From Symbiotaphrina buchneri (Eukaryota; Ascomycota; Symbiotaphrinales; Symbiotaphrinaceae), in contig BCIG01000006.1 of assembly GCA_001599915.1 (NCBI GenBank), positions 620,001 through 684,000 of the forward strand: a stretch of 64,000 nt of DNA, in the 5' to 3' direction. A program made the position numbers and the translations under genes. Positions 70-36,316 of the stretch are shown here, in pieces (the stretch's first letter is position 1; each line of letters begins with the position of its first letter). The notes below the pieces were generated by a model. That model was not told where the DNA came from, searched no databases, and saw nothing but the letters and a program-made list of their open reading frames with translations.

Positions 70-3000
70 TCATGAAGCGTATGCAAACTCGGTCCCTCTA
101 CATGCAATCCAGAAATCTTTTACAACCTGATTCGTCTTCCGGGCCCCTCTGAGACTGATCAAGCGATCGCATCTATTAGCCAAGTGGTATATCCAAGCAA
201 GCTCGCTCGAGGGCCTACCTTAGAATTGTCTGCAGCCACAGTCGTTTGTCTGCGTCTTCCACCTTCTGGCTGGGAAACGATGGGCTAAAAAGTGCACCCT
301 CGAGCCACATCTTAGCCTTGGGCTGCTTGAAGACCATCTTCTTCAGGAGGTCGGTGAGCGCATCCAGTTCGCTTCGAGACGCCTCTCCTCCTAAGTTATA
401 GACCAGAGCATCTGCCAGATGGGGCCCGAAATACCCCACTACTTCAGTAATAGAGGCTTGAACATCCTCGGGCAAGTCGGTGAGGGCGATAAATGTCGCC
501 TAATTCGCAGAAGTTAGACATTTGGCACCGACTGAAGCAAGACAGTAGCTTACCCAGAAGGATGCCGCGGACCGTTTTGGTAGGATCTCCTTACCCCGAA
601 GACACCTCAGAGTAAAGACGAACGCATTTTCTACCAAAGCTCGAGGCTGAAGCTGAAATATGATATTTGTATAACGCGGGTTAATCTTGCCAAATAGATC
701 AACGCAATTCTGCGCAATTTCGGGATCTTGCTCCGGTGCTGAACAGGTCAGTTGATAGGGTACCTTGTAGCGCAGATGAAGCATACCTTGAAGGGCTTCC
801 ATGAGGTTCAAGGCGAAGCTCAGTAATCGTTCTACCTCATGATCTATCCTGATCGAGGAGTCCATGCTATGGGACGTGATGAGTATGCAAGCCGTGGTGA
901 GGACAGGGCCCAGGCGGGATGTCTCGAGGTTTAGATCGAGTAGAAAGTCTGTTACAAGTGAGGGAGGGAAAACAAAGGGTCCAGGTGATCTTTCTGTGAA
1001 CCCTGACCGGATGACAGTACACGCTGCTTCAACGATCTCCGTGTCCGTGCTGAGAAGCGATGTAACAGCTCTTACAGCTTGGATAATGCGAATTTGCAGA
1101 GCCGAGCCGGATCCCTCAATCCAAAACGAATTCGATGGAGTCTCCGCCTCTAGGTCAATTGCAACATCATCGGGCACCTGCATAGCCTTTCCAAGGCTTG
1201 CCATGCATCTGAGGGCGCTCAGTCCTTCAGCTTGTGCTGTGGGAACATCACCGCGGTTGTAGGCCTGTGTGCACCGATTAACATCCCGTTCGATGAATCC
1301 TAATAGGCCGTTGAGCGGCAGCTCTTTCGCCTCCTCTGATGGCAGAGCTTGAACTATGGAGCCAATGGCACCGAGTACCTTTTCTTTGGTGAGCATATCA
1401 GCTGTCGTACAAGTAACAAAATGTTCGTATTGTTGCAGGAATGCGCTCAGCTCCAAGGTCAAAGACTGCCGGCATGAAGAGCATAATGACGCTATCGACC
1501 TTGATGCTGTTGTAGCGTAGGCAGGAGCTTCCAATGATACGAAGAGAAAGTTGAGGGCCGCAGGCAGATACTCTTTGTGGCGCTCGAAAAAGGCCGCATA
1601 ATGGCCTAGAAGATTGACGGCTGTCTGGCGCATCTTAGCAGGCGCCGCCAGCCTCGCATCTGAAAGCTCAGAGAACATTGAAGAACCAAGCAGGCGCTCA
1701 AGAATTGAGTCCTCTGTGTCTCCCTCGGATATGCAGTCGGCAAGCGAGTTAAGACAAAATAATGCTGCTTCTGTCTCCGTCCACGCGCCGCTGTTAAAAG
1801 AAGACAGCGCAAGCTCGACGAATTTCTCGAATATAACAGAGCCTAACAAGGGATAGCACGACTGAAGATAATCCCGCACCTCAATGCGGAAATCTTTGAA
1901 CCCCTTCCTAATTTCAGAGTCCCATGACGCAGCGACTTCGCTGGGGGGCATCCGAATCTTGGCCCAGCACCGCTCGATAGATTGCAGGATGGTTCCTCTT
2001 GCGTGCTCGAACCATGGCGCCTTGTCCTGCCCTTCGGCGAAGAGAGAGTCGATTAGGAACTCCACGAACGTGTTCCAGAATTCGATGGCAGATGTGCAGA
2101 TCTCGTCCTCGGCAACAGCATAGCCGTCACAGTTCAGCAATTCGAGGAACATCAATAGCAGACTTCCTGAACGCTGAGTTTCCGGCGTCCGCGCAATATC
2201 TTGGACACTAGCATCTCCGAAAGCCAGCAATAATCTCCCGAAAAGCAGCGAGTCGAATTCGAAGTCACCCGCTTTGAGTCTCTGTAAGCGCTCTACGCCC
2301 CAGTCACTAGTCAGTATAGAGGCGAGGGCGTCTATATGGGGCAAGTCCAGGAATCTCGAATAATTTGACAAGACGTCGGTGAGTAGTTCAGCAGCGACAT
2401 CAAAGAGATCATCCTGCACTAGGCAATGTACCACCGGTTCGATGAGGCCCTTCAGTGCTCCCAGAGATACCTCTGAGTCGAGCCAGGCTTTTTGAGCATA
2501 AAACACCCATGACTGTAAAACATCAGCAAATGATTCTCCAACTCGACAAGGGTCTCCGCCAATACCTGATATGACTTAATTCCCTCGCGACTGAGCTTTG
2601 TGACAGATATGTTCGCGCCATTCACTGCCTTTGAGCCAGGATGCAAGGTATGACTTATGACGTCTACGACATCTTGCGCACTGGAAGAGACCCGTTCATG
2701 GAACTTGTTCCTGCCACATATAGTCAGGAGCCTTTCGGCACAAACGAAGTTAGAGACACTAACTCACTGTTTTACGCTGTTAACATCAATTTTGCCGACT
2801 TCCTCCGCCAGAGCCGAGCTAAACCAGAGCGTGGTGGCAATTTGCTGCTCGGTGAGCTTGTCCACTAAGCCAAAAGTTTCTGGGTAGGTCTCTACGGCAT
2901 CATAAGGAACCGCTTCCCCGCTACAGAAACAACAGATTATATGCCGGACCGGTCTGTCCCAAGAAGGGGTGATTCGTATGAAATACGTGACCAAGGTAGA

Positions 3001-3451
3001 GCACAGCTTCTTCAACACCAGGGGACCGGAGCTTTGGGCCACTAGGCGGACAAGCCAGCTCAACAGACGTTGGAGCAATTGTTTTGCACTTCCCTCGTCC
3101 AAGCTTTTCCTACGTGGTTTTAGTACGTGTCGAACTAGTCGAAAGGTCTGGATTACCAGTCAGAATTGATCTTAACGGTGAATGTCAGAGCCCCAAAGAA
3201 TCGCACAGCTTCATCATCGCTCGACAGTAGTGCGTCTGCTAGTTGCCAGCCATCTGGCGATCTCTGCAACTGCTGCAGTGTCTCTTGAATGTTGTTGATA
3301 TAGGTTGGCGGGCCGGGTTGGTAGAGGCGTTTAACTAGCTGGGAATGCTTAGCATGAATTGGTCCTCCAGGAGGATTCTGGGGACACCAACCTGCTCCAC
3401 GTCTTCGTATGACGACGGCATGACGGCGGCAGAACCGATGCTTGTAGTCAT
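70..3451 (-). CDS. Importin-beta family karyopherin, importin-13/Kap122 type
   Basis: Nuclear transport receptor of the importin-beta superfamily; yeast Kap122/Pdr6 and animal importin-13 are the nearest family I recognise. About 1,030 residues in seven exons. The start ATG at 3451 gives a short first exon (about 20 aa), joined at VEQ|LVKRLYQPGPP to the typical first HEAT repeat, which contains SPDGWQLADALL and RFFGALTFTVKI. Introns have GT..AG ends, e.g. one with a GCTAAGC branch point before the LVKRLY exon and one after FVLASFW-type sequence near 550. The last exon reads from about 171 to the stop at 70 and encodes RGARKTNQVVKDFW, a conserved C-terminal block. The rest is helical HEAT/ARM-like sequence without catalytic motifs. 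It is divergent from the aminopeptidase gene at 4003. The cargo cannot be read from the sequence; in yeast Kap122 imports TFIIA. Mtr10/transportin-SR is the main alternative family assignment. Confidence 0.85.
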
Positions 3452-4002
3452 CGTGATATGCAGCTGTGTGAGGTGCGGAGCGGATAGAAAGGCGGGGTTG
3501 CTTGGACGGCGCACGCGCTTTGCTGGCAAAGGTGAGAAACAACGGTCCTAGAGAAATACATGGCTCGGGCTCGTTGGCGCATGCTTTCGGGTTTCCAAAT
3601 CTCTCAAAGTCATATGATTTATTTGACGCGACAATTGATTATAACATTGCACAAGAGAATCCGCATTGGGCTGCACTGAACCCCCACCTTGCACATCGGA
3701 CGTCGGGAAATGCCATCTGCCAGCCAACACTGGACGGCTACCTCAACTTACCTCAACCTCAGTAGGTTGGCGCCCGAGCTCCTTAAAGAGGCCTAAACCG
3801 ACCTATTATACCTTACCTGCCCAGCTCGGCAGTAACTGTAACTGTAACTGGTGGTGTACAAAGCACCGAGCCCTTTGTAACTTCTTGCAGCTATCCTACT
3901 CCGTACGCCGTGCCCAGTCCGTGCTGCCCACTGGTCGTGTGCGGGTGCATCCTCTCTTTCCACGCTTCACCTACGACCACGAACGACCTTGACCGCTGTC
4001 AG
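3452..4002. promoter_or_regulatory. Divergent promoter region, karyopherin / aminopeptidase P
   Basis: Shared upstream region of two divergently transcribed genes. It holds several CCTCAACTTACCT and TACCTTACCT words (3738-3765 and 3809-3818), a three-unit GTAACT tandem near 3832-3850, and TACTCCGTA at 3897-3905. No open frame here is supported as a gene. Function of the words is unknown. Confidence 0.5.
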
Positions 4003-6516
4003 ATGCAAGTGCTGCGGCGTTGGCTCATTGGCAGACCCTCAATCTGCCAACAGACCTTCCCCAGACCGACTTCATTTCGCGGATTGAGCTCGACGGCTGC
4101 CCAACGTTCAGTAGCAGATATGGAGAAAGTGGACACCAGCGATCGCCTCGCACGTCTGCGTGAGCTGATGAAAGCTCATAAAGTCGACGTCTACGGTAAG
4201 CACGCCTCTTGTCGGTGCATACCCTCGCAATTGACGGCCATCTAGTCGTTCCTTCGGAAGATAGCCATCAGTCCGAGTATATCGCGCCGTGCGATGCGCG
4301 CAGAGGTACGTCTCAGATATAGCTTACTGCGCACCACCGGGCTGCCTAACCGGTCACTGCAGAATTCATATCAGGCTTCTCGGGCTCAGCAGGGACAGCG
4401 GTGATCACACAACAGAAGGCAGCTTTAGCGACTGATGGGCGATACTTCAACCAAGCGGAGAAGCAGCTCGACAGCAATTGGCAGTTATTGAAGCAGGGAC
4501 TCCAAGATGTACCCACATGGCAAGAATGGTAGGTTAAATGCTCATGGTCAGTCATTCGGGGTGACCGCGCTGAAGTTGGCTAGGACGGCGGAACAAGCAC
4601 AGAATGGGGAATTTGTCGGAGTGGATCCGGCTGTCATAACAGCCGGTTAGTGCCCTCAATATCCATAAACCACAAGGATACCTGCTGATGTCTTCCAGCT
4701 GAGGCCCGGAAGCTTGCAGAAAAGATTAAGAAGAAGGGGGGTTCTGATCTGCTCCCTGTCAGGGAAAACCTCGTGGACATGGTGTGGGGAAAGTCGCGGC
4801 CACCCCGTCCGGATGAAAAGGTCAACGTCCTGGGACTGGAGTTCTCAGGCAAGAAATTCCAGGACAAGCTGGCTGAGCTCCGGAAAGAGCTAGACAAGAA
4901 AAAGAGTTCGGGATTCATCATATGTATGCGTGTGTTCCTGCCATTCCTGGTTTTCAAGGGCTGACCGAAACACTAGCCATGCTGGACGAGATCGCTTGGC
5001 TGTTCAATCTCCGGGGGAATGAGTCAGTCCAGTTCACTAGCTGCTTTTGAGAGATGGAGTATGCTGACAACAGCAGTATCCCTTACAATCCGGTTTTCTT
5101 TTCATATGCTCTTGTGACTCCTACAGAGACAACCCTATACATCAGCGAAAGCAAACTGAGCCCTGCGGTTAAGCAACATCTAGGGAGTGAAGTGACGATC
5201 CGCCCATACGATGCAGTTTTCGATGATATCAGCGCCCTGAGCGATACCACTTTCAGTCACCAGTCGACGAACGGCGCATCTGAATCGACAAAGCCAAAGA
5301 AGTTCCTGGTGTCGAATAAAGCGTCATGGGCGTTGAGTAAGTCTCTAGGAGGGGAAGACAGGGTGGAGGAAGTCCGTAGTCCTGTCGGCGATGCAAAAGC
5401 AGTCAAGAACGCAACAGAGGTAGACGGCATGAGAGCTTGCCATGTCCGCGACGGTGCAGCTCTAATTGAATATTTCGCTTGGTTGGAGGATGAGCTCGTG
5501 AATAAAGGAGCTAAACTGGATGAAGTAGAAGCCGCCGACAAGCTGGAGCATATAAGATCGTGAGTTCTACACATTGCTTATCTGCATCACTGACGACCCA
5601 TAGCAAGCATCAACACTTCGTCGGATTATCCTTCGATACCATCTCTTCCACTGGACCAAATGCGGCTGTTATACACTACAAACCAGAACGAGGCAATTGT
5701 GCCACTATCGACCCAAATCAAGTGTACCTCTGTGACTCCGGAGCTCAGTACTTCGATGGCACCACAGATACTACGAGAACCTTACATTTTGGTCAACCCA
5801 CGGAAATGGAACGCAAGGCTTACACATTGGTCTTGAAGGGGAATATAGCCCTTAATCAGGTCGTCTTCCCCAAAGGAACAAGTGGTTTTGCGCTCGATAC
5901 ATTAGCTCGGCAATTCTTGTGGGAGGAAGGCTTGGATTACCGTCATGGGACTGGCCACGGTGTAGGCTCATACCTTGTAGGTACCCACCGAGGCACGTCC
6001 CATCAGTGGCTCTCACTGACCTTTCGAAGAATGTCCATGAGGGACCAATAGGTATCGGTACCCGGGTTCAGTACTCCGAAGTTCCATTGGCTCCTGGTAA
6101 TGTGATTTCCGATGGTATGAGCTCGAAACATCCTACGCCAACAATTTTGGGTTCTGACTTCTGCAATAGAGCCCGGCTACTATGAAGACGGTAAATTCGG
6201 GATACGCATAGAGAGTAAGCTGTGGCCCCCTCCCATATACCTGTTTAAACAAACGCAAGTGCTGATAAATATAGACGTCATTGTGGTCAGGGAGGTCCAA
6301 ACGAAGCATAAGTTCGGAGACAAGCCCTATTTAGGCTTTGAAGGAGTAACCATGGTGCCAATGTGCCGAAACCTAATCGATGCAAATCTTCTTACCGACG
6401 GTGAGAAGAAATTTCTGAATGAATATCATGAGACGGTATTCAACGATACCAAAGGCTTCTTCGGGGATGATCCAAGGAGCTTCAAATGGCTGAAGCGAGA
6501 GACACAGCCAATCTGA
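4003..6516 (+). CDS. ampp: Xaa-Pro aminopeptidase P (M24B metallopeptidase)
   Basis: Removes an N-terminal residue preceding proline; dinuclear Mn(II) enzyme of about 650 residues. Two creatinase-like N-terminal domains ([20 protein letters not shown], then [13 protein letters not shown]) precede the pita-bread catalytic domain. Metal-ligand blocks are visible: [33 protein letters not shown] and the final GFEGVTMVP glutamate. The gene has about ten short introns; one after GVGSYL joins to [10 protein letters not shown]. The first ATG at 4003 adds 39 Arg-rich residues lacking acidic residues, which resembles a mitochondrial presequence. A second in-frame ATG at 4120 gives the usual cytosolic start [16 protein letters not shown]. 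Divergent from the karyopherin gene; Sec8 follows on the same strand. The family call is secure; the location of the product is inferred. Confidence 0.93.
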
Positions 6517-26755: not shown

Positions 26756-29700
26756 ATGATGTCGCTGCGCGGAGGCGATGGCAGGAGCCCGCTCATCCGT
26801 GGTCGAGGCGGCGGACGCGCTGGTAGGGCCAGTCGAGGTCGTGGCCATAGGCGCGGTGGTATGGGAGGAGAGAGCGAGACCGATGAGCAGGGCAAGCAAC
26901 GGGCCCGAACTGCTCCTGGCGGGCCCAGCTCTGGCCTCCCTTTTAAGAACGCGCGGGTGCGTTCCAACGGCGTACGTCTGCCTGCATCGAAGCTGTCGAC
27001 TACGAATGGGGATTCGCTGCCCGGGAGGAGACAAGACTGGCGAGATCCAAGTTCTGCGGACTACCAAAAGAACATGAACGACTACTTTCAGACGGTATAT
27101 TTCTTTCCTTGCGAGTTCTGCCCTCCATATGGGTGACACTGACTACCATTACTCGTGTTCTAGCTCAAGAAAAGACGAGAGAAGGAGCGGGCCGACGCTA
27201 TCAAGAATGGTTTGATCGCCGACCCGGAAGTGAGGACGGGGCTAGACAAGGCCATAACATTGGTTGGCACCTGCCAGGATATGTGCCCGGAGTTCGAAAG
27301 GGTTGAGCGGATAGTGCAGAATATGGTTGATGGCTGTGAGAAGGTTAGAGGCGCTCCATCGACGATTTCGCCCTCGTGGTCTGACTGCTATGTCCTAGGC
27401 AATGGTAGACTCTGCGAACAAGTCTGTGCCTATCGAAGAACACATGGTCAAGAGATTCCGACGCTCCGCAGCTGGTTATGATGAACAATTACCTTCGGAT
27501 GTCCGGCCGCCACTCGTGCTTCAGGTTCGCAAAACATACCCCTGGCCTTCTGGGACGCATTGATCTAAGCTTGTGCAGCGAACGCTCAATTACCTACTGG
27601 ACGAAGTTGTTGGTGGCCCACAGTCATTGGCGACTGTCCACAAATTCGTATGGGACAGAACACGCAGCATTCGCAACGATTTCTCCGTGCAGCAGCTCAC
27701 GAAAGCTCGAGATATCGCGGTCGCAGTTGACTGCTTTGAACGCATTGCTCGATTTCATATCCTTAGCTTGCATCAGCTCTCACATCCTGACATCTCTGAT
27801 TCGGAGTTTAGCCCCCAGCAGGAGCGAGAGCAACTTGATAAAACTCTCCTATCTCTGACGTACTACTACGACGATAACCGGCATAAACTTCCCTTGCCAA
27901 ACGAGGCAGAATTTCGCGCGTACTGCATCATCTTTCAGATACAAAGCCCGCTACCGGATCTAGAGGAAAGAGCGCAGGGGTGGCCTAAGGAAGTCTTCTG
28001 GAACTCTAGAGTCCAGACGGCCCTGAAACTGTACGCTGCCGCCACAAATTCGATGGATGAATATGGTCCCTTGGCCCCTGGGGCCAGTGCGTCCGTGAGC
28101 CAAGGCAATTATAGTCGCTTTTGGCAGATGGTCGGTTCAAAGAAAGTGTCATATCTTATGGCATGCGTGGCCGAGATCTATTTCAATCTGATACGAAGAG
28201 TCGCCATCACCTCCATGTGCAGGGGATTTAAACGAAGTGGAGGAGCCAAAATGGAGGACCTGACTCTGGAAGATCTGGTGTTTGCACTTGGCCTAGACGA
28301 CGAAGAACAAGTCGAGATGCTTTGTGAAGCACATGGCCTCCGGATTGCAGAGCAGTCGGACGGCTCGAGATATCTTGATATTGATTCGCTTTCCGGGGAT
28401 TTACAAGGTATGGCATCTTCGGAATTCCTTCTCGGTCTGGGCTATCTTGACGGACCTTCTAGCACCTTCCCCACCGTTTAAGCAAATGTTCTCTGAAAGG
28501 CTAGTGGAGTCGAAACGCTACGGCCGAACACTTCCAGCGATTGCGAACGGAGTATCAGTGTCTTCAGCTGTCCAGCAGGGCATGATCGAGGACCCCGCCG
28601 TCGAAATCGAATCAACTTCTGAACAGGACGACCAGTCTCTTTTCGTCACCCAGGACGTGGGGGAAGATATGGGAGAAGACGGTGTCGTAGAGTCTGAGGT
28701 CCGCAACCCGTCTTTCCAGGATACTGGAGGTGCAAAGCAAGCTTCCGCTGCCAGGCTGAACCCTACCGCGTCTACTTCTGAGCCCAAACCTGCTTCCGCT
28801 TTCACCAGTTTTGGCTCTGAATCCATTCCCAAATCTTCGGCCCCTGCAGGGACAAATCCTTTCGCGAATCCAAACGTGATTTCCTCTACACCAAATCCGT
28901 TTTCCGCAGCAGCTCAGAAACCCTCAGCAACGGCTAGCCCTTTTTCGAAGAATGTGTCTTCTGGTTCAGTGGCCGGGGCGTTCGGCAGTTCAACGTTCGG
29001 GGCTCCCAGCACGGTCCCTTCTGGTTCTTCTCCCGCACCGCTGAATCCTTTCGGAACAGACAAGTCCTTCACCAATCCTTTCGCACCGAAGCCCTCATCC
29101 ACTGTCCCGTCGGACTCCAGCACTCCTGCTCCAAATCCCTTTGGTACCGGGAAGATTGCTTCAAATGTTTTTGGTCCCGGGGTTGTATCTGCAACTCCTT
29201 CAAACCCTCCAAAGCCTGCGGATCCCGAGTCCACCTCATCATTCAAAACGACACCTAAGGAAACCCAGCCTTCTTCAATATTCAGTACTGCGGTCTTTAC
29301 AAACACTCCTAGCCAGAGCGAAGGGAATCCGGGTTTTACCAGTGCCGAGAAAGCAACTGGCCCTTCCGCGCTTTCTAGTAGCAGGCCTTTTCAATTCCCA
29401 GCGTTTGGGAGCAGTTCTAACACAGGTACCGACCTGAAAAAGATCTTTCCTTCTATGGAGGATTCCGTTGAGAAGGAGAAGTTGCCGTCGAAGCCGGCGC
29501 CCTTCCCATCTCTACCACAGACATCGTCGGGAAGTTCTGCACAGACACTATTCGCAACACCGAATGTTCCCTCGGCGTCCTCGCAAACCCCTACTACAAC
29601 ACCAGGTGTCGGAAATTCAACCACAAATGACATTTTCCGAGATCCTCGTCTACAACCCGGCATTCCGTCCCAGGGCACTTCAGCCTCTGCGGTCACCACG

Positions 29701-31611
29701 CCGGGGCCCTCAACGGAAGAGAAACCCCGCCCTGCAAAGACCGTAACATTCGCCCCGTTCCCTGAATATTCAAAAAGTCCCGAAGTACAGCCGCGGACGC
29801 CGAGCACCGACCTGTCACAGCCAGATAAAACATCTTCTTCCGGTGATCACAGACCATCCGCACTTCGCGCATCAGCGGCGCTATCACTGAGCCCTGGACA
29901 CAAGAATTTCCCTTCGGAAGCTTCGCAGCCGAAACCTTCCTTGGATCTCTCGCGTTCGATAAACTCACTCGCACAATCACTATACTTCGAAAGAAATGGA
30001 CTGCTCGGCCAGTTCGTCGAGTTCACTGTAGGCTCGGTCGTCTTTTCTGCCCTTGAGCAAGTCTCAGACGAGAATGTAGCGGCGGAGGCAGGTACGTTCA
30101 TCGCTGTATTTTCACCCTTAAAGACCCGGCTGACCCGTTCAGATCATTTCCGTCAACGAAAACTTTCTGAGCGCTACTTTTATAGATGGAAAGACATCAG
30201 TTGGAAGCTGGGTTTGAAACGCAAAGGAAGAGAACGTCGGAAGAAGTTTGCAGAATCTCTGAGAGCTTCTGTGAGCGGTAGGAAGAGAGGGATTGAACAG
30301 GATATGGAGGATTGGGTGAAGAGGCAAAAGCCGGACGGGGGTTCAGAGGAACGACAAAGACTGGAGGTAGTTGATGGTGCGGTTCATCAATCGGTCAGTC
30401 ACATGAGGGGGAGGAAGAGCTTGCCGCCTGGTTACGCTCCAAATGGTGAAGGGTCTCTTCGTGATGAGGGCGACCAAATGCAGAAGCGGCCTTCGCCAGC
30501 ACCTGTGATTGGTACTCCTGGAACGGCTGCGGCTGCAGCTCGGAAATATAAACGGTCAAGAACTGTGGCCAACGTCGAGGCCGGACCGCAGTCCTCAAGG
30601 AGTGCCTACAACAATTCGAATCTTCAAAGGTCACCACTGGGAAACTCGTCGCTTTTCAGAGACTGGTCGCCTAATTCTTCAACTGCCAACCACATACGAC
30701 GGAAAGATACGACACAGAGCGAGTATTTCCGTCTCAAGTCGATGGGTCTGGATCCCAATAAACTACTTTCACCCAAGGTCACATCTACCAAACTGAATGG
30801 CACAGGTGTGAGGGGTGAGGATAACGACGCGATAGCGAACAAGTCGGCTAAACGTTCGTTGGACGACGCCTCGTTTGATTCACCACGGTCTCGTCCGCGG
30901 TGCTCTGGCGAATTCGACCGAAAGGCGGCTGACGACGAAGATGAGGAGCTTTTTGCTCAACTGCAAGGGGTGAGGGAGGCAATGAATGATGGGATCGTAT
31001 TCTTTCACAAGCAGTTGGAAGAAGAGGGCAAGAGGTTGCGAGAGAGCACTGGAAGTAGTCGACGAAGTAGCGGAGGTCCAAGTGTGCATCAAGCACAGGA
31101 CTATGACCAGGAGGCATTATCCAACTCTAGGAGAGGGTTTTGGAGGCCGAAGGACCGGCCGCGGACGGTGTTTGAGGTCAAGCCTAGAACTAACAAACCT
31201 TTACCAAGCGTTCAGGCAAAGCCCCTTGGGTCACACACTCCGGCGCTGAGCGTGGGGAGCGACTTTGGAGCAAATGATGAAAGCCCTGGGGTCGAGGAGG
31301 GCCTGCACGATGATGAGGCATCTGCAGAAGAAGAGGAAGGACTGGAAGACTTTGAAGGAGAGGATGAGGACGACCTGCGATATGGGGCAGACGAAGTATC
31401 CGAGGATGGTCTCCAAGAGGAATATTTGGAGGAAGGAGATTACCTAGAGGATGAAGAATCGCCTGCTGGCTACTCTGAAGAAGTAAGCGGCGACGAGGAA
31501 GGGAGCTACGTCTCGGAAGACGATTTTGTCGCGGAGGACGCGGCTGCAAGGGCGCGCCGGGCCGCTCTGGCGGCCAAAGGAAGCAGCGCCGACGATGCCA
31601 TTGAGCTTTGA
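26756..31611 (+). CDS. SAC3: Sac3/GANP-family mRNA export factor (TREX-2 scaffold)
   Basis: Scaffold of the TREX-2 complex, which links transcription to mRNA export at the nuclear pore. About 1,480 residues. The N-terminus is Arg/Gly-rich (RGRGGGRAGRASRGRG). The Sac3 domain begins at TLVGTCQDMCPEFERVER, passes HMVKRFRRSAAG and RTLNYLLDEVV, and ends with a winged-helix-like segment at MEDLTLEDLVFALGL. Then comes a Ser/Pro-rich region (roughly residues 480-830) with many NPF/FG-type repeats resembling nucleoporins. A basic segment follows (LSERYFYRWKDISWK), and the C-terminus is very acidic. Introns lie after DYFQT, CEK, LVLQ and GDLQ. A further in-frame intron near 30092-30143 (GTACGT..TTCAG) probably joins AAEA to DHFRQRK. 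It is not clear whether the FG-rich part binds Mex67, as in other family members. Confidence 0.9.
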
Positions 31612-32073: not shown

Positions 32074-34849
32074 CTACTTTGCCATGCCATCCAAGACCTC
32101 CTCATCCTCATTCAGATCCATCAGATCGCCCTCCTCGCCTCCGTCTCCCTTTGACCCCGAAGCGACCATCTGCGCGACCAGGCCTCCGGCCGACACCCGT
32201 TCCTGCATCTCCTGCTCTCCGGGTTCATGAGCGACGGCCTCCTCGTAAGGCGGTGGGTCCTGTGGAGGCGCGTCGGGGAAGGTTCTCGTGTCGAGCACGA
32301 ATGGTACTGTGTGGCGACCGCCAGCCGGCGGGGAAGGGGCTCGCCGCATGGGCTGCTCGTCCTGGTCGCTTTCGCCGGCATCGGCACGGTTCTTGCGCTT
32401 AGGAGATGCCTGCGCGGCCGGCTCGTTCGAGGCCTGGCCCTGTGCCAGCTCGGCGGCAAAGGCGAGGTTATCGGCTTTGACGAATTCCTGCGTCGGAGAC
32501 CGTCAGCTACCGTTCAGAATCGTTCTGTGATGGCCCCTTGCGTCAGGGGCTCGGGGGACCTTACTTGCAAACTGTCCGGTACTGGATCGTAGTCCGCAGA
32601 GCAGGCAGCGCTGCTCGCGTAGACCAGCAAGACCTTCTTGCCTTCATCTTTGGCTGCTTTGAGCACCTGCTTCTCCGACACGCGCGTCTTCTCCACAGGC
32701 TTCGAACCGTGCGATGAGTAGCTAAGTTTCCACAACTGTAGACCTCTTGAGAGGGCATCGGGTGTAGCAGGGGCTTCCTTGTTATCGTCTAGGGGATATA
32801 GAATATAGGTCGTTGATGGGTCCGTTGAAACCCCACGTAAATGGTACGGATTCTGGGGCGAGCGCTCCGGATCTCCCTCTATGGGTTGCGTGAGCAGAGT
32901 TGAAAGGTCCCTTAGACTTGCTCGTGCCTTTTCCGTTTGCTCATCGAGGACTGTTTACATTAGCGGGAGATCGTCACGTCCAGGCATCCTGTATAATACA
33001 TACGCCGCAACTTTTCGGTCACGCTCTCGTAGACTAATCTGAGCTGCTGTTCGAGGTCCTGCTTCGTAGACTTGTCGTCAGACTCGGCTTGAGCTTCGTG
33101 GCTGTCCTGGGAGGCTGTGTCGACTGACGACGGCTTTGGCACGAGACAGGCCATTGCCTTCTCCAACAGTTTCCTCGCGTCGATATTCTGACCATTACTG
33201 CCCCGGGCATTGAGCAATCTCATGCGCCGCTGGTCAATCTCGGCCAGTTCCTGCAAAATTTCAGCCTTCTTTGTCCGCATTTTCTTTGCCAGCTCCGCGT
33301 TGGCTTCTAGGTAGCGATCAGGGTACCATATAGATGGTACCCGTACCCCGACTCCGGCCTTCCCCATGGTTTGCTGTTCCACCCTCAGGGTGATCACGTC
33401 TGCTATGCTGGTCAAATATGTATGGTCTTCAATCCTGCCATCCAAAGGTTCGCTCCAGATGAACTCGTCAAGCGCATCATACAAAGAGGCATTGGGAGCT
33501 ATTGGATTCTCGTAGATGAGCACATCAAGAACTGAGAAGAGGACCCGCTCCGGTTCCTGTGCCGGATCTTCCAGGAAAGAAACTTTGACGGCTCGCGACT
33601 CAAAGAGGTTCGTCTGACTGTCACCGGACATTTCTCGAGCCGAACCTTCCCAGGCCCGAAGGAAATTGGGGAGGACCTCATCCACGGCTTCATTGTAAAC
33701 AGTAGGCAATGTCGCCAATGCCTGAACACTTCCATAGGATCTGTCAGTGAGCTCGAGAAAAGCCATTAGCCTCTGCGTCTCATATATGACCTCCTCCCCA
33801 CTGACAACACCTGCCGCTTTCGGTGATTGGGTGACCTTTGCCAACTTTATAGGCGTCCCATCCCACCATTCATCGTCACATCCATAGCTATCCAAAACAT
33901 AGTCTCTCATGAGCAGTGCCTCACGCGCCAATGGTATTGTTTGCATAATAGTGACCATGGGTGCGAGAAAACCGCCGGAAGGCGATGGCTTCATAAAAGC
34001 AGGTTCCCCAGCTTGCCGCTTCCTGTCCTGAGGCTTAGGATTCAGTATGATTTCGTGAGCCGAAGATCCTGAGACGGTTGTCAATGCCCATTGTTGTGTG
34101 TCGTAGTAATCCCTGTTTGCCGGACCAAACTGCGTCCCAGATGTTCCAGTGACGCCGCTCTCTTGGGGATAATGTTCGCTCATAGATAAGGCCATGGCCT
34201 GCTGCAATTCTTGTTCCTCTCGTTCCTCCCTGCTCAGATTCTTATTCGTACTGGCTGCTACCCTTCAGTCAGCTCAATGCCAAAATCCCGGCACAGTAAC
34301 ATGGCACGCACAGGGGCTAGTTTCCGTGGTCAGGTCAATTGTCGCCTGGTTGCCCATCCTTGAAGGAGGCCGGGAGGGGGCAGCGCTGAAGACATTTGGT
34401 TGCAGACTATCCGCTCCTTGGATGTTGAAAGCTGATGTCGTGAAAAAGCAGGAGTTAGTGGTCAAAGAGCGTTTTCAATGCATCCTCTCTGCCCGGGGCT
34501 GGGCCCTCTTACAAGGAACATTTTGACCGTAATCGGTTTTGTCAGCCTGGAAAGCGCTCTCGTCCCATGTGGTGTCAGTCTGTTGTAGTTGAAGTTAGCG
34601 ATGATCAACACACGAACTCAACGTCTGGACATGCCTGGGGTTGCTGCGGATTCGGATTCTCATAGTGTGCATTAACAGTCTTCTGTATATCGTTGTCGTT
34701 CAACTGCAGGTCTTGTATTCAGCTCTAGAGTTCTGTGCGCTGGCAAAGCTGTGCTCTCCCACCTTAAGCTTCCGCACAGCTTCATCGCGACTGATGTCAA
34801 GGATCTGCTGTAACGTCCGTACAGTTTCCTCTGGTGGATCCGAGCTCAT
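32074..34849 (-). CDS. USP25/28-like pseudo-deubiquitinase with UBA, SIM, UIM and PY motif
   Basis: About 800 residues, seven exons, start ATG 34849. Order: UBA-like domain (residues about 6-50, TLQQILDISRDEAVRKL then NDNDIQKTVNAHYENP); TIDLTTE, a SUMO-interaction-like motif; UIM EEQELQQAMALSMSEHY; then NPKPQDRKRQ leading into a USP fold. The Cys-box position reads PSPSGGFLAPMVTIMQTIP, which lines up with GNTCWFSAVIQSLFQLP of USP25/28, so Gly replaces the catalytic Cys. A YPDRYLEANAELAKKMRTKK coiled segment matches the USP25/28 insertion. The His-side half (LWKLSYSSHG, KVLLVYASS) is recognisable. The last exon contains PPPY (32245-32256) and an acidic tail. One intron is GC-AG. It is predicted to bind ubiquitin or assemble a ligase/DUB complex rather than cleave. 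Yeast Rup1 (UBA plus PY motif) has a comparable layout. The family match is from my reading of motifs, not a search. Confidence 0.8.
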
Positions 34850-35514: not shown

Positions 35515-36316
35515 TCAAGAAGTCTCATTTCCATCTTCACTTGGAGAGTCGACATCAACATCATCCTCGTCAAAGTCATCCGCAGACATCTCAACGTCGG
35601 AAGCACTTCCACCGAAATCGTCTTCCTCGTCACTGTCGTACCAGAAGTCCTTATCTTCTTTCTCTTCCTTGGGTTTCGCAGGTTCAGCCGTGGAAGGCAT
35701 CACAAACCCTTCCGGGATGTCCTTCTTCGACAGCTCGACATCCTCCCTGACTAGCTCTTTGTACTTCTCCAGATCCTGACGAAGGGTGACGGAGGCATCT
35801 ACATTGGCCGGCGAGCTAACTTCCGCGTCATCAAAGAGGGACAGGATAGAGATCAACACGGACTCGACACGTTGGGCAGGCGACCAGCGCTCGGCCGCAG
35901 TCTCCCCAGACATCTCGTCGTCTCCCGGAGGATGGAGGATCGAGATGCAGAGTCTTCCGTCTTTGTAAATATTGGGGTGGTACAATGGCCGAAGAAACTT
36001 AAAATCTTTTCTACCGTTAGTATTCACACCACTCCCATGAGCGGTCCAACAGCAACGAACTTACTAGGTGGAGAATATGGGTAGTTGTTGGGGAAAGTCA
36101 TCTTTGCCTTGAAGTAACCGCCGTGATAGTACGAGTCAGGATTGACTACAATGAGCGCAATGTTCCAGTCGAAGATGTTCTCATTGTTCAGCTCGAGTGA
36201 GAGTTAGCCGCGTATTGTAGGCCCATATCTCGGGTAACAGGGCTACTCACCTCGATGTTCGCCCAAGGTTCTTTGGACAGGCTCTTGAACTCGTTCATCA
36301 ATATTCGCTCGGCCAT
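35515..36316 (-). CDS. CDC34: Ubiquitin-conjugating enzyme E2, Cdc34/Ubc3
   Basis: E2 of SCF ubiquitin ligases, needed for degradation of cell-cycle inhibitors and, in yeast, of Gcn4. About 228 residues, three exons. The start ATG 36316 gives MAERILMNEFKSLSKEPWANIE, joined to LNNENIFDWNIALIVV. The core contains YPYSPP, HPNIYKDGRLCISIL with the active-site Cys, and the Cdc34-specific acidic insertion HPPGDDEMSGETAAERW after the active site. The C-terminal tail from about residue 180 is highly acidic (DFWYDSDEEDDFGG), the Cdc34 feature that binds the cullin basic canyon. Divergent from CWC2. The insertion plus tail separate it from Ubc7, which lacks the tail. Confidence 0.95.

Follow-up and report, generated by a model that had tools for sequence, protein, structure and literature searches.

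What is left for a deubiquitinase-like protein to do once the residues of its active site are gone? The question is raised by a gene of the fungus Symbiotaphrina buchneri that lies on the minus strand of a 64,000-nucleotide stretch of contig BCIG01000006.1 (positions 620,001 to 684,000; hereafter the window). An initial annotation had read its product, here called the window protein, as a conserved pseudoenzyme with the fold of USP25 and USP28 that binds ubiquitin or SUMO rather than cleaving. Our analysis indicates that the gene probably encodes a dead member of the USP25/USP28 lineage and the filamentous-fungal counterpart of yeast Rup1, most likely a non-catalytic partner of Ubp2 that brings Ubp2 to Rsp5. 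We computed the fold (on a relative, P0001), the loss of the catalytic Cys and His, the conservation, the homology to Rup1, a model of Rup1, and the Ubp2 and three-WW HECT ligase of the genome. Residue numbers throughout refer to an 805-residue model of the protein.

32074..34849, minus strand: whole gene, USP25/28-type pseudo-deubiquitinase, Rup1-like; splices to an open reading frame of 805 aa; the listed relatives share 29-45% identity with it (best local alignment)

Fold and domain order

A protein search returned 136 relatives at E<=1e-3 (120 listed), and a profile built from 18 divergent members returned 209 at E<=0.01 (120 listed). Among the matches listed, the named relatives come from lichen-forming fungi, Aspergillus, Penicillium, black yeasts and species that we take to belong to the Leotiomycetes, Orbiliomycetes, Dothideomycetes and Sordariomycetes; many of their records are named 'ubiquitin interaction motif protein' or 'ubiquitin interaction domain-containing protein'. 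The top-scoring listed relative is P0001 of Xylona heveae, with 45% identity. When the S. buchneri genome was searched with P0001, the window locus was the sole match among the best candidates scored, and a second gene copy was rejected on this basis. Column counts (n=221) comprise the window protein and 220 of the 237 listed relatives, 17 relatives shorter than 560 aa having been dropped; a further 16 protein-search and 89 profile-search matches lie beyond the 237. The alignments hold 42 (A1), 66 (A2) and 18 (A3) of the 120 listed protein-search relatives and 36 of the 48 yeast matches (A4). Two family records, P0056 (Talaromyces) and P0077 (Aspergillus), also hold a dynactin p22 domain (PF07426), perhaps from merged neighbouring gene models.

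The family profile was compared with the PDB by HMMER, and the best 12 of 41 rows were all USP25/28, more than chance would give. The match does not stem from the UBA, UIM or coiled coil alone, as chains of the catalytic domain match at 1.1e-12 and chains that lack the insertion at 3.1e-5. Structural alignment of the P0001 model (VIA-align) retrieved USP-type chains only, among the matches listed, and covered 405-421 residues with insertion-bearing chains versus 290-309 with insertion-less ones, at similar Z. The predicted fold is therefore that of a USP domain nearest to USP25/28 and carrying the large helical insertion, and both lines of evidence bear out the initial annotation on this point.

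32613..34042, minus strand: degenerate USP domain, residues 194-652, beginning with NPKPQDRKRQ and closing with the last strand, KKVLLVYAS; interrupted by intron 33003-32951
32892..33328, minus strand: helical insertion with the WYPDRYL entry motif, by HMMER alignment to the USP25/28 insertion; intron 33003-32951 inside

It takes the family profile to reach USP25/28: when the spliced protein by itself was searched against the PDB with phmmer, the three rows returned (E 0.38-0.44) contained no USP catalytic domain. Pfam lists no UCH match for the window protein (exons apart at E<=10, spliced at E<=1), so that Pfam alone would miss the domain; UCH is also absent from the 25 of 58 Pfam families shown for 43 family members.

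By comparison, the insertion helices of the window protein would span approximately residues 440-474, 479-494 and 518-559, and the P0001 model has helices at 436-467, 484-504 and 518-560. In the third helix, eight alignment columns hold hydrophobic residues in at least 90% of sequences, as expected of any coiled helix, and one of the eight is Glu in the window protein; the placement of this helix against V541/L545 of USP28 is uncertain by one residue.

Around the core, the parts described in the initial annotation (UBA-like domain, IDLT, UIM, NPKPQDRKRQ and USP fold, in USP25/28 order) are present, the Pfam matches to UBA_4 and UIM being weak and under their cut-offs. The letters of IDLT, NPKPQDRKRQ, the Cys-box line and the stretch YPDRYLEANAEL all stand as first quoted.

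34650..34831, minus strand: UBA-like domain (Pfam UBA_4), residues 7-47; intron 34762-34704 inside
34325..34342, minus strand: IDLT stretch resembling a SUMO-interaction motif (SIM), residues 112-117, from sequence only
34172..34219, minus strand: UIM-like helix, residues 135-150; Pfam UIM under cut-off, family profile aligned with the matching USP25 stretch
32449..32585, minus strand: post-domain motif PVPDSLQEFVKADNLAFAAE, residues 662-681, spanning intron 32564-32488; family profile aligned with the same USP25/28 motif

UBA_4 matches the window protein at E 1.8e-4 (21.6 bits, curated cut-off 21.8) and UIM at E 2.6e-3 (17.9 versus a cut-off of 21); at E<=1 they are found in 29 and 17 of the 43 family members, respectively. 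The loose pattern [VIL]D[LMV][TSD] occurs anywhere in 112 of the 221 sequences, a count without a chance control. Ubiquitin or SUMO binding by the window protein is what we infer from these parts. With human USP25 and USP28 the protein shares the order of its UBA-like, SIM-like (IDLT) and UIM-like parts and USP domain, the place of the insertion, the entry motif (DRYL/DRYM) and, after the domain, the motif L..FV..DN..F; unlike them, it has no catalytic Cys or His. The C-terminal region also differs, being of low confidence in the P0001 model, whereas that of USP25 is a folded domain (PMC6509359, in the excerpt drawn on here).

A probable counterpart of yeast Rup1 and its candidate partners

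Aligned with yeast Rup1 (YOR138C) by hhalign, the family profile scores E 1.8e-16 and 2.2e-17, versus 0.17-0.96 for decoys, and by this comparison the family is homologous to Rup1 over most of its length. A model of Rup1 is USP28-like, with an N-terminal UBA followed by a degenerate USP25/28-type domain with insertion, the same arrangement as in the window protein. A Rup1 profile run against the PDB matched UBA domains, and its 24 rows included no catalytic domain of a USP. The two proteins differ in the place of the PY motif, which lies before the domain in S. cerevisiae Rup1 (131-135) and in the C-terminal tail of the window protein, and in the UIM-like match, which Rup1 lacks.

With this relationship, the view that such a protein lacks a functional description is not supported, as its homologue Rup1 has a published role as a partner of Ubp2 and a tether to Rsp5 (PMC2626285, PMC3777918). 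The yeast literature is cited here from excerpts. Rup1 and Ubp2 co-purify to completion and likely in equal amounts, with Rsp5 sub-stoichiometric, and in yeast without Rup1, Ubp2 did not detectably precipitate Rsp5 (PMC2626285). In vitro, Rup1 increases the auto-ubiquitination of Rsp5, and it is cited as raising Ubp2 activity (PMC3777918). The 2009 paper nevertheless called its role 'enigmatic' (PMC2626285). In fission yeast, the UBA protein Ucp6 co-purifies with Ubp2 (PMC2935449). The literature, rather than a sequence comparison, is what groups Ucp6 with Rup1. InterPro and PANTHER names presumably unite the two as well.

The genome of S. buchneri holds candidates for both partners. A Ubp2-type gene on contig C9 (L019, ~2419-5033) has RPT repeats, PVGLENVGNTCYLNS and GHYWIYIYD. 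In a PDB comparison, the exon pieces of this gene, joined together, hit USP25/28 at 4e-28 but USP7 at no better than 1.1e-9. Its DRYM motif and both ends of its insertion align with USP25; on these grounds Ubp2 itself looks USP25/28-like. No UBA or UIM was matched in the part examined, which excludes the N-terminus. A three-WW HECT ligase on contig C16 is expected to be Rsp5.

A candidate ligand for such WW domains is found in the tail of the window protein:

32239..32259, minus strand: PPPY motif (DPPPYEE), residues 745-751 (PPPY 746-749), candidate WW-domain ligand, from sequence

PPxY occurs in 30 of 200 family C-terminal tails (21 of the 221 sequences lack the delimiting motif and were not counted), compared with a mean of 3.0 and a maximum of 8 in 200 shuffles. 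The Ubp2 of the genome has a PPPY of its own inside the USP domain, and docking to Rsp5 might therefore be shared by Ubp2 and the Rup1-like protein.

We propose that the window protein would pair with a live, USP25/28-like Ubp2, that its UBA and UIM may read ubiquitin, and that it would bring Ubp2 to the NEDD4-type ligase Rsp5, with docking in S. buchneri possibly occurring via its PPPY and the WW domains of Rsp5. The binding among Rup1, Ubp2 and Rsp5 is taken from the yeast literature; that the window protein behaves in the same way, and that pairing occurs via the insertion, we infer.

Several observations weigh against this proposal. The case for orthology to Rup1 is built on similar profiles, a similar fold and the finding of a single locus rather than on a tree or synteny, and no UIM was matched in yeast Rup1 at E<=0.1. 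Between the family profile and the single Ubp2 sequence there is only a weak match (E 0.0085, probability 4.7), and with the Rup1 profile there is none (E 0.15). Just 57 of the 221 family proteins and 22 of the 48 from yeasts hold a PPxY anywhere. In yeast, the Y135F exchange in Rup1 weakens Rsp5 binding without abolishing it, the discussion of the same paper mentions residual binding of Ubp2 to Rsp5 in the absence of Rup1, and multivesicular-body sorting did not require Rup1 (PMC2626285).

Deletion of UBP2 in the rice blast fungus revealed no evident function in the excerpt cited (PMC9599802), and the complex may thus be dispensable in some fungi. A BLASTP comparison of the window protein with the Ubp2 of the genome gave nothing meaningful (best E 0.19).

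A pseudo-USP could instead read ubiquitin or SUMO chains without a lasting tie to Ubp2 or Rsp5, its likeness to Rup1 then reflecting descent and not a shared partner. The UBA and UIM-like parts are indeed the sole Pfam features of the window protein, and PPxY is missing in 164 of the 221 family members. However, pairing with Ubp2 has been reported in two distant yeasts (PMC2626285, PMC2935449, both in part), and the genome holds both the Ubp2 gene and the three-WW HECT ligase. We consider this alternative unlikely and favour a Rup1-like partner of Ubp2.

Catalytic residues and gene model

The former active-site boxes of the window protein are as follows:

33911..33991, minus strand: former Cys box KPSPSGGFLAPMVTIMQTIPLAREALL, residues 211-237, with Gly217 (33971-33973) at the place of the catalytic Cys by ungapped HMMER alignment with USP28 and column counts
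32790..32852, minus strand: former His box NPYHLRGVSTDPSTTYILYPL, residues 573-593, with Thr587 before conserved Tyr588 where USP25 has GHYW; pairing read by eye

The HMMER alignment of the Cys box with USP28 (8p1p) is ungapped, and Gly217 stands 13 residues before the invariant Pro230, as the USP28 Cys stands 13 residues before a Pro. The structural alignment of P0001 starts at residue 192, opposite residue 149 of USP28; continued gap-free, it places Cys171 on Phe214, the residue aligned with Gly217 of the window protein. Both alignments uphold the reading of Gly at the catalytic Cys for this gene. As a family feature the Gly fails, since the position 13 before P230 is H in 108, L in 28, G in 14 and C in 3 of the 221 sequences, others making up the rest, and the Cys column of the alignment is a gap in 99. 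GNTC[YFW]-like motifs are absent from all 221 family sequences and 48 yeast relatives. The residue before Tyr588 is T in 94, A in 75 and V in 18 of the 221, with others and a gap in 3, and in none of them is it His. Loss of the catalytic Cys and His is thus a family trait by sequence, with Gly confined to few members, and the family is one of pseudoenzymes on this criterion, in agreement with the initial annotation.

Single exceptions occur at either box. The three records with Cys 13 before P230, P0194 and P0195 (Microdochium) and P0224 (Monosporascus), lack the GNTC context and the His, and the yeast relative P0280 has GHY at the His-box place without a Cys-box motif.

Pseudo-USPs are a known kind. 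USP39/Sad1 and USP52/PAN2 belong to other USP branches. They too have a USP domain without the canonical triad and differ in their roles, which lie in splicing and deadenylation complexes (PMC10919355, in part). Activity through unusual catalytic residues has been argued for USP39 and USP52 and reported for USP53/54, USPs labelled dead having been re-examined (PMC10919355; PMC12037411, both in part). In favour of such an active deubiquitinase here are the three sequences with Cys 13 before P230 and the 71 of 221 with His within five residues before Tyr588. Yet neither box holds a conserved Cys or His, and with a gap at the Cys column in so many members we regard activity as highly improbable.

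A sequence error, a pseudogene or a faulty gene model at this locus, with orthologues that work in other species, can practically be dismissed. The improbable shortness of one intron in the first model speaks for it, but the frame is open across seven exons, and none of the 220 counted relatives combines a Cys-box motif with His before Tyr588. The coordinates and strand first assigned are correct: seven exons, from ATG to stop on the minus strand (34849 -> 32074), splice to 805 aa with 0 internal stops.

34849-34763, 34703-34614, 34579-34513, 34431-34312, 34257-33004, 32950-32565, 32487-32074, minus strand: coding exons; introns GT-AG or GC-AG
34634-34580, minus strand: alternative intron 2, GC-AG, 55 nt, with CTAAC branch site; the preceding exon then 34703-34635

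Intron 2 of the 805-aa model is the short one (34 nt), and the 55-nt GC-AG version appears likelier; it would remove residues 53-59 and make the protein 7 residues shorter.

Its upstream neighbour, also on the minus strand (window 35515-36060, by eye to ~36310), encodes a ubiquitin-conjugating enzyme (Pfam UQ_con, E 3.2e-19). The tail of this enzyme is long and acidic, and by eye the enzyme resembles Cdc34; two ubiquitin genes adjoin here. On the plus strand, window 28297-31611 holds a stop-to-stop frame of 1104 aa with no Pfam match at E<=0.1; by eye, its first half is rich in NPF and FG-like repeats, and the part near its end is very acidic.

A possible live and dead pair

The window protein and Ubp2 are both USP25/28-like by PDB match, with a DRYM/DRYL-type entry and insertion; Ubp2 keeps GNTCY and GHYW and has RPT repeats, whereas the window protein is without the catalytic Cys and His. 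The insertion of USP28 is described as both required and sufficient for tight dimerisation, and the double exchange V541E L545E renders USP28 monomeric with unchanged activity (PMC6509359, in part). Joined with the yeast data on Rup1, Ubp2 and Rsp5, these dimer data suggest that Rup1-like proteins are dead USP25/28 subunits which pair with a live Ubp2, bind ubiquitin by their UBA and UIM and use a PY motif to dock on the ligase. It is even conceivable, at a likelihood that we place just short of an even chance, that Ubp2 and Rup1 are halves of one ancestral USP25/28 dimer which after duplication left the active site in Ubp2 and the UBA-SIM-UIM readers in Rup1 and its family, and which still pair via the helical insertion, the part by which USP25 and USP28 form homodimers.

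In the portion of open-licence PMC text covered, we saw neither Rup1 described as a degenerate USP nor Ubp2 as USP25/28-like (publication elsewhere is possible), and no dead USP25/28-type protein across filamentous fungi and yeast. A 2010 fission-yeast census, in the excerpt cited, lists no human counterpart for Ubp2 (PMC2935449). Ubp2 prefers K63 chains (PMC5059457, in part), and Rup1 was found enriched on such chains (PMC11109483, in part).

If Ubp2 is a live and Rup1 a dead USP25/28-type protein, the architecture of their complex, the cited stimulation of Ubp2 by Rup1 and the K63 preference of Ubp2 become directly testable structural questions, and USP25 and USP28 would gain fungal relatives for the study of dimer regulation. 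If the proposed pairing is true, the Rsp5-Rup1-Ubp2 complex would contain a heterodimer of a live and a dead USP, with readers and scissors on separate chains.
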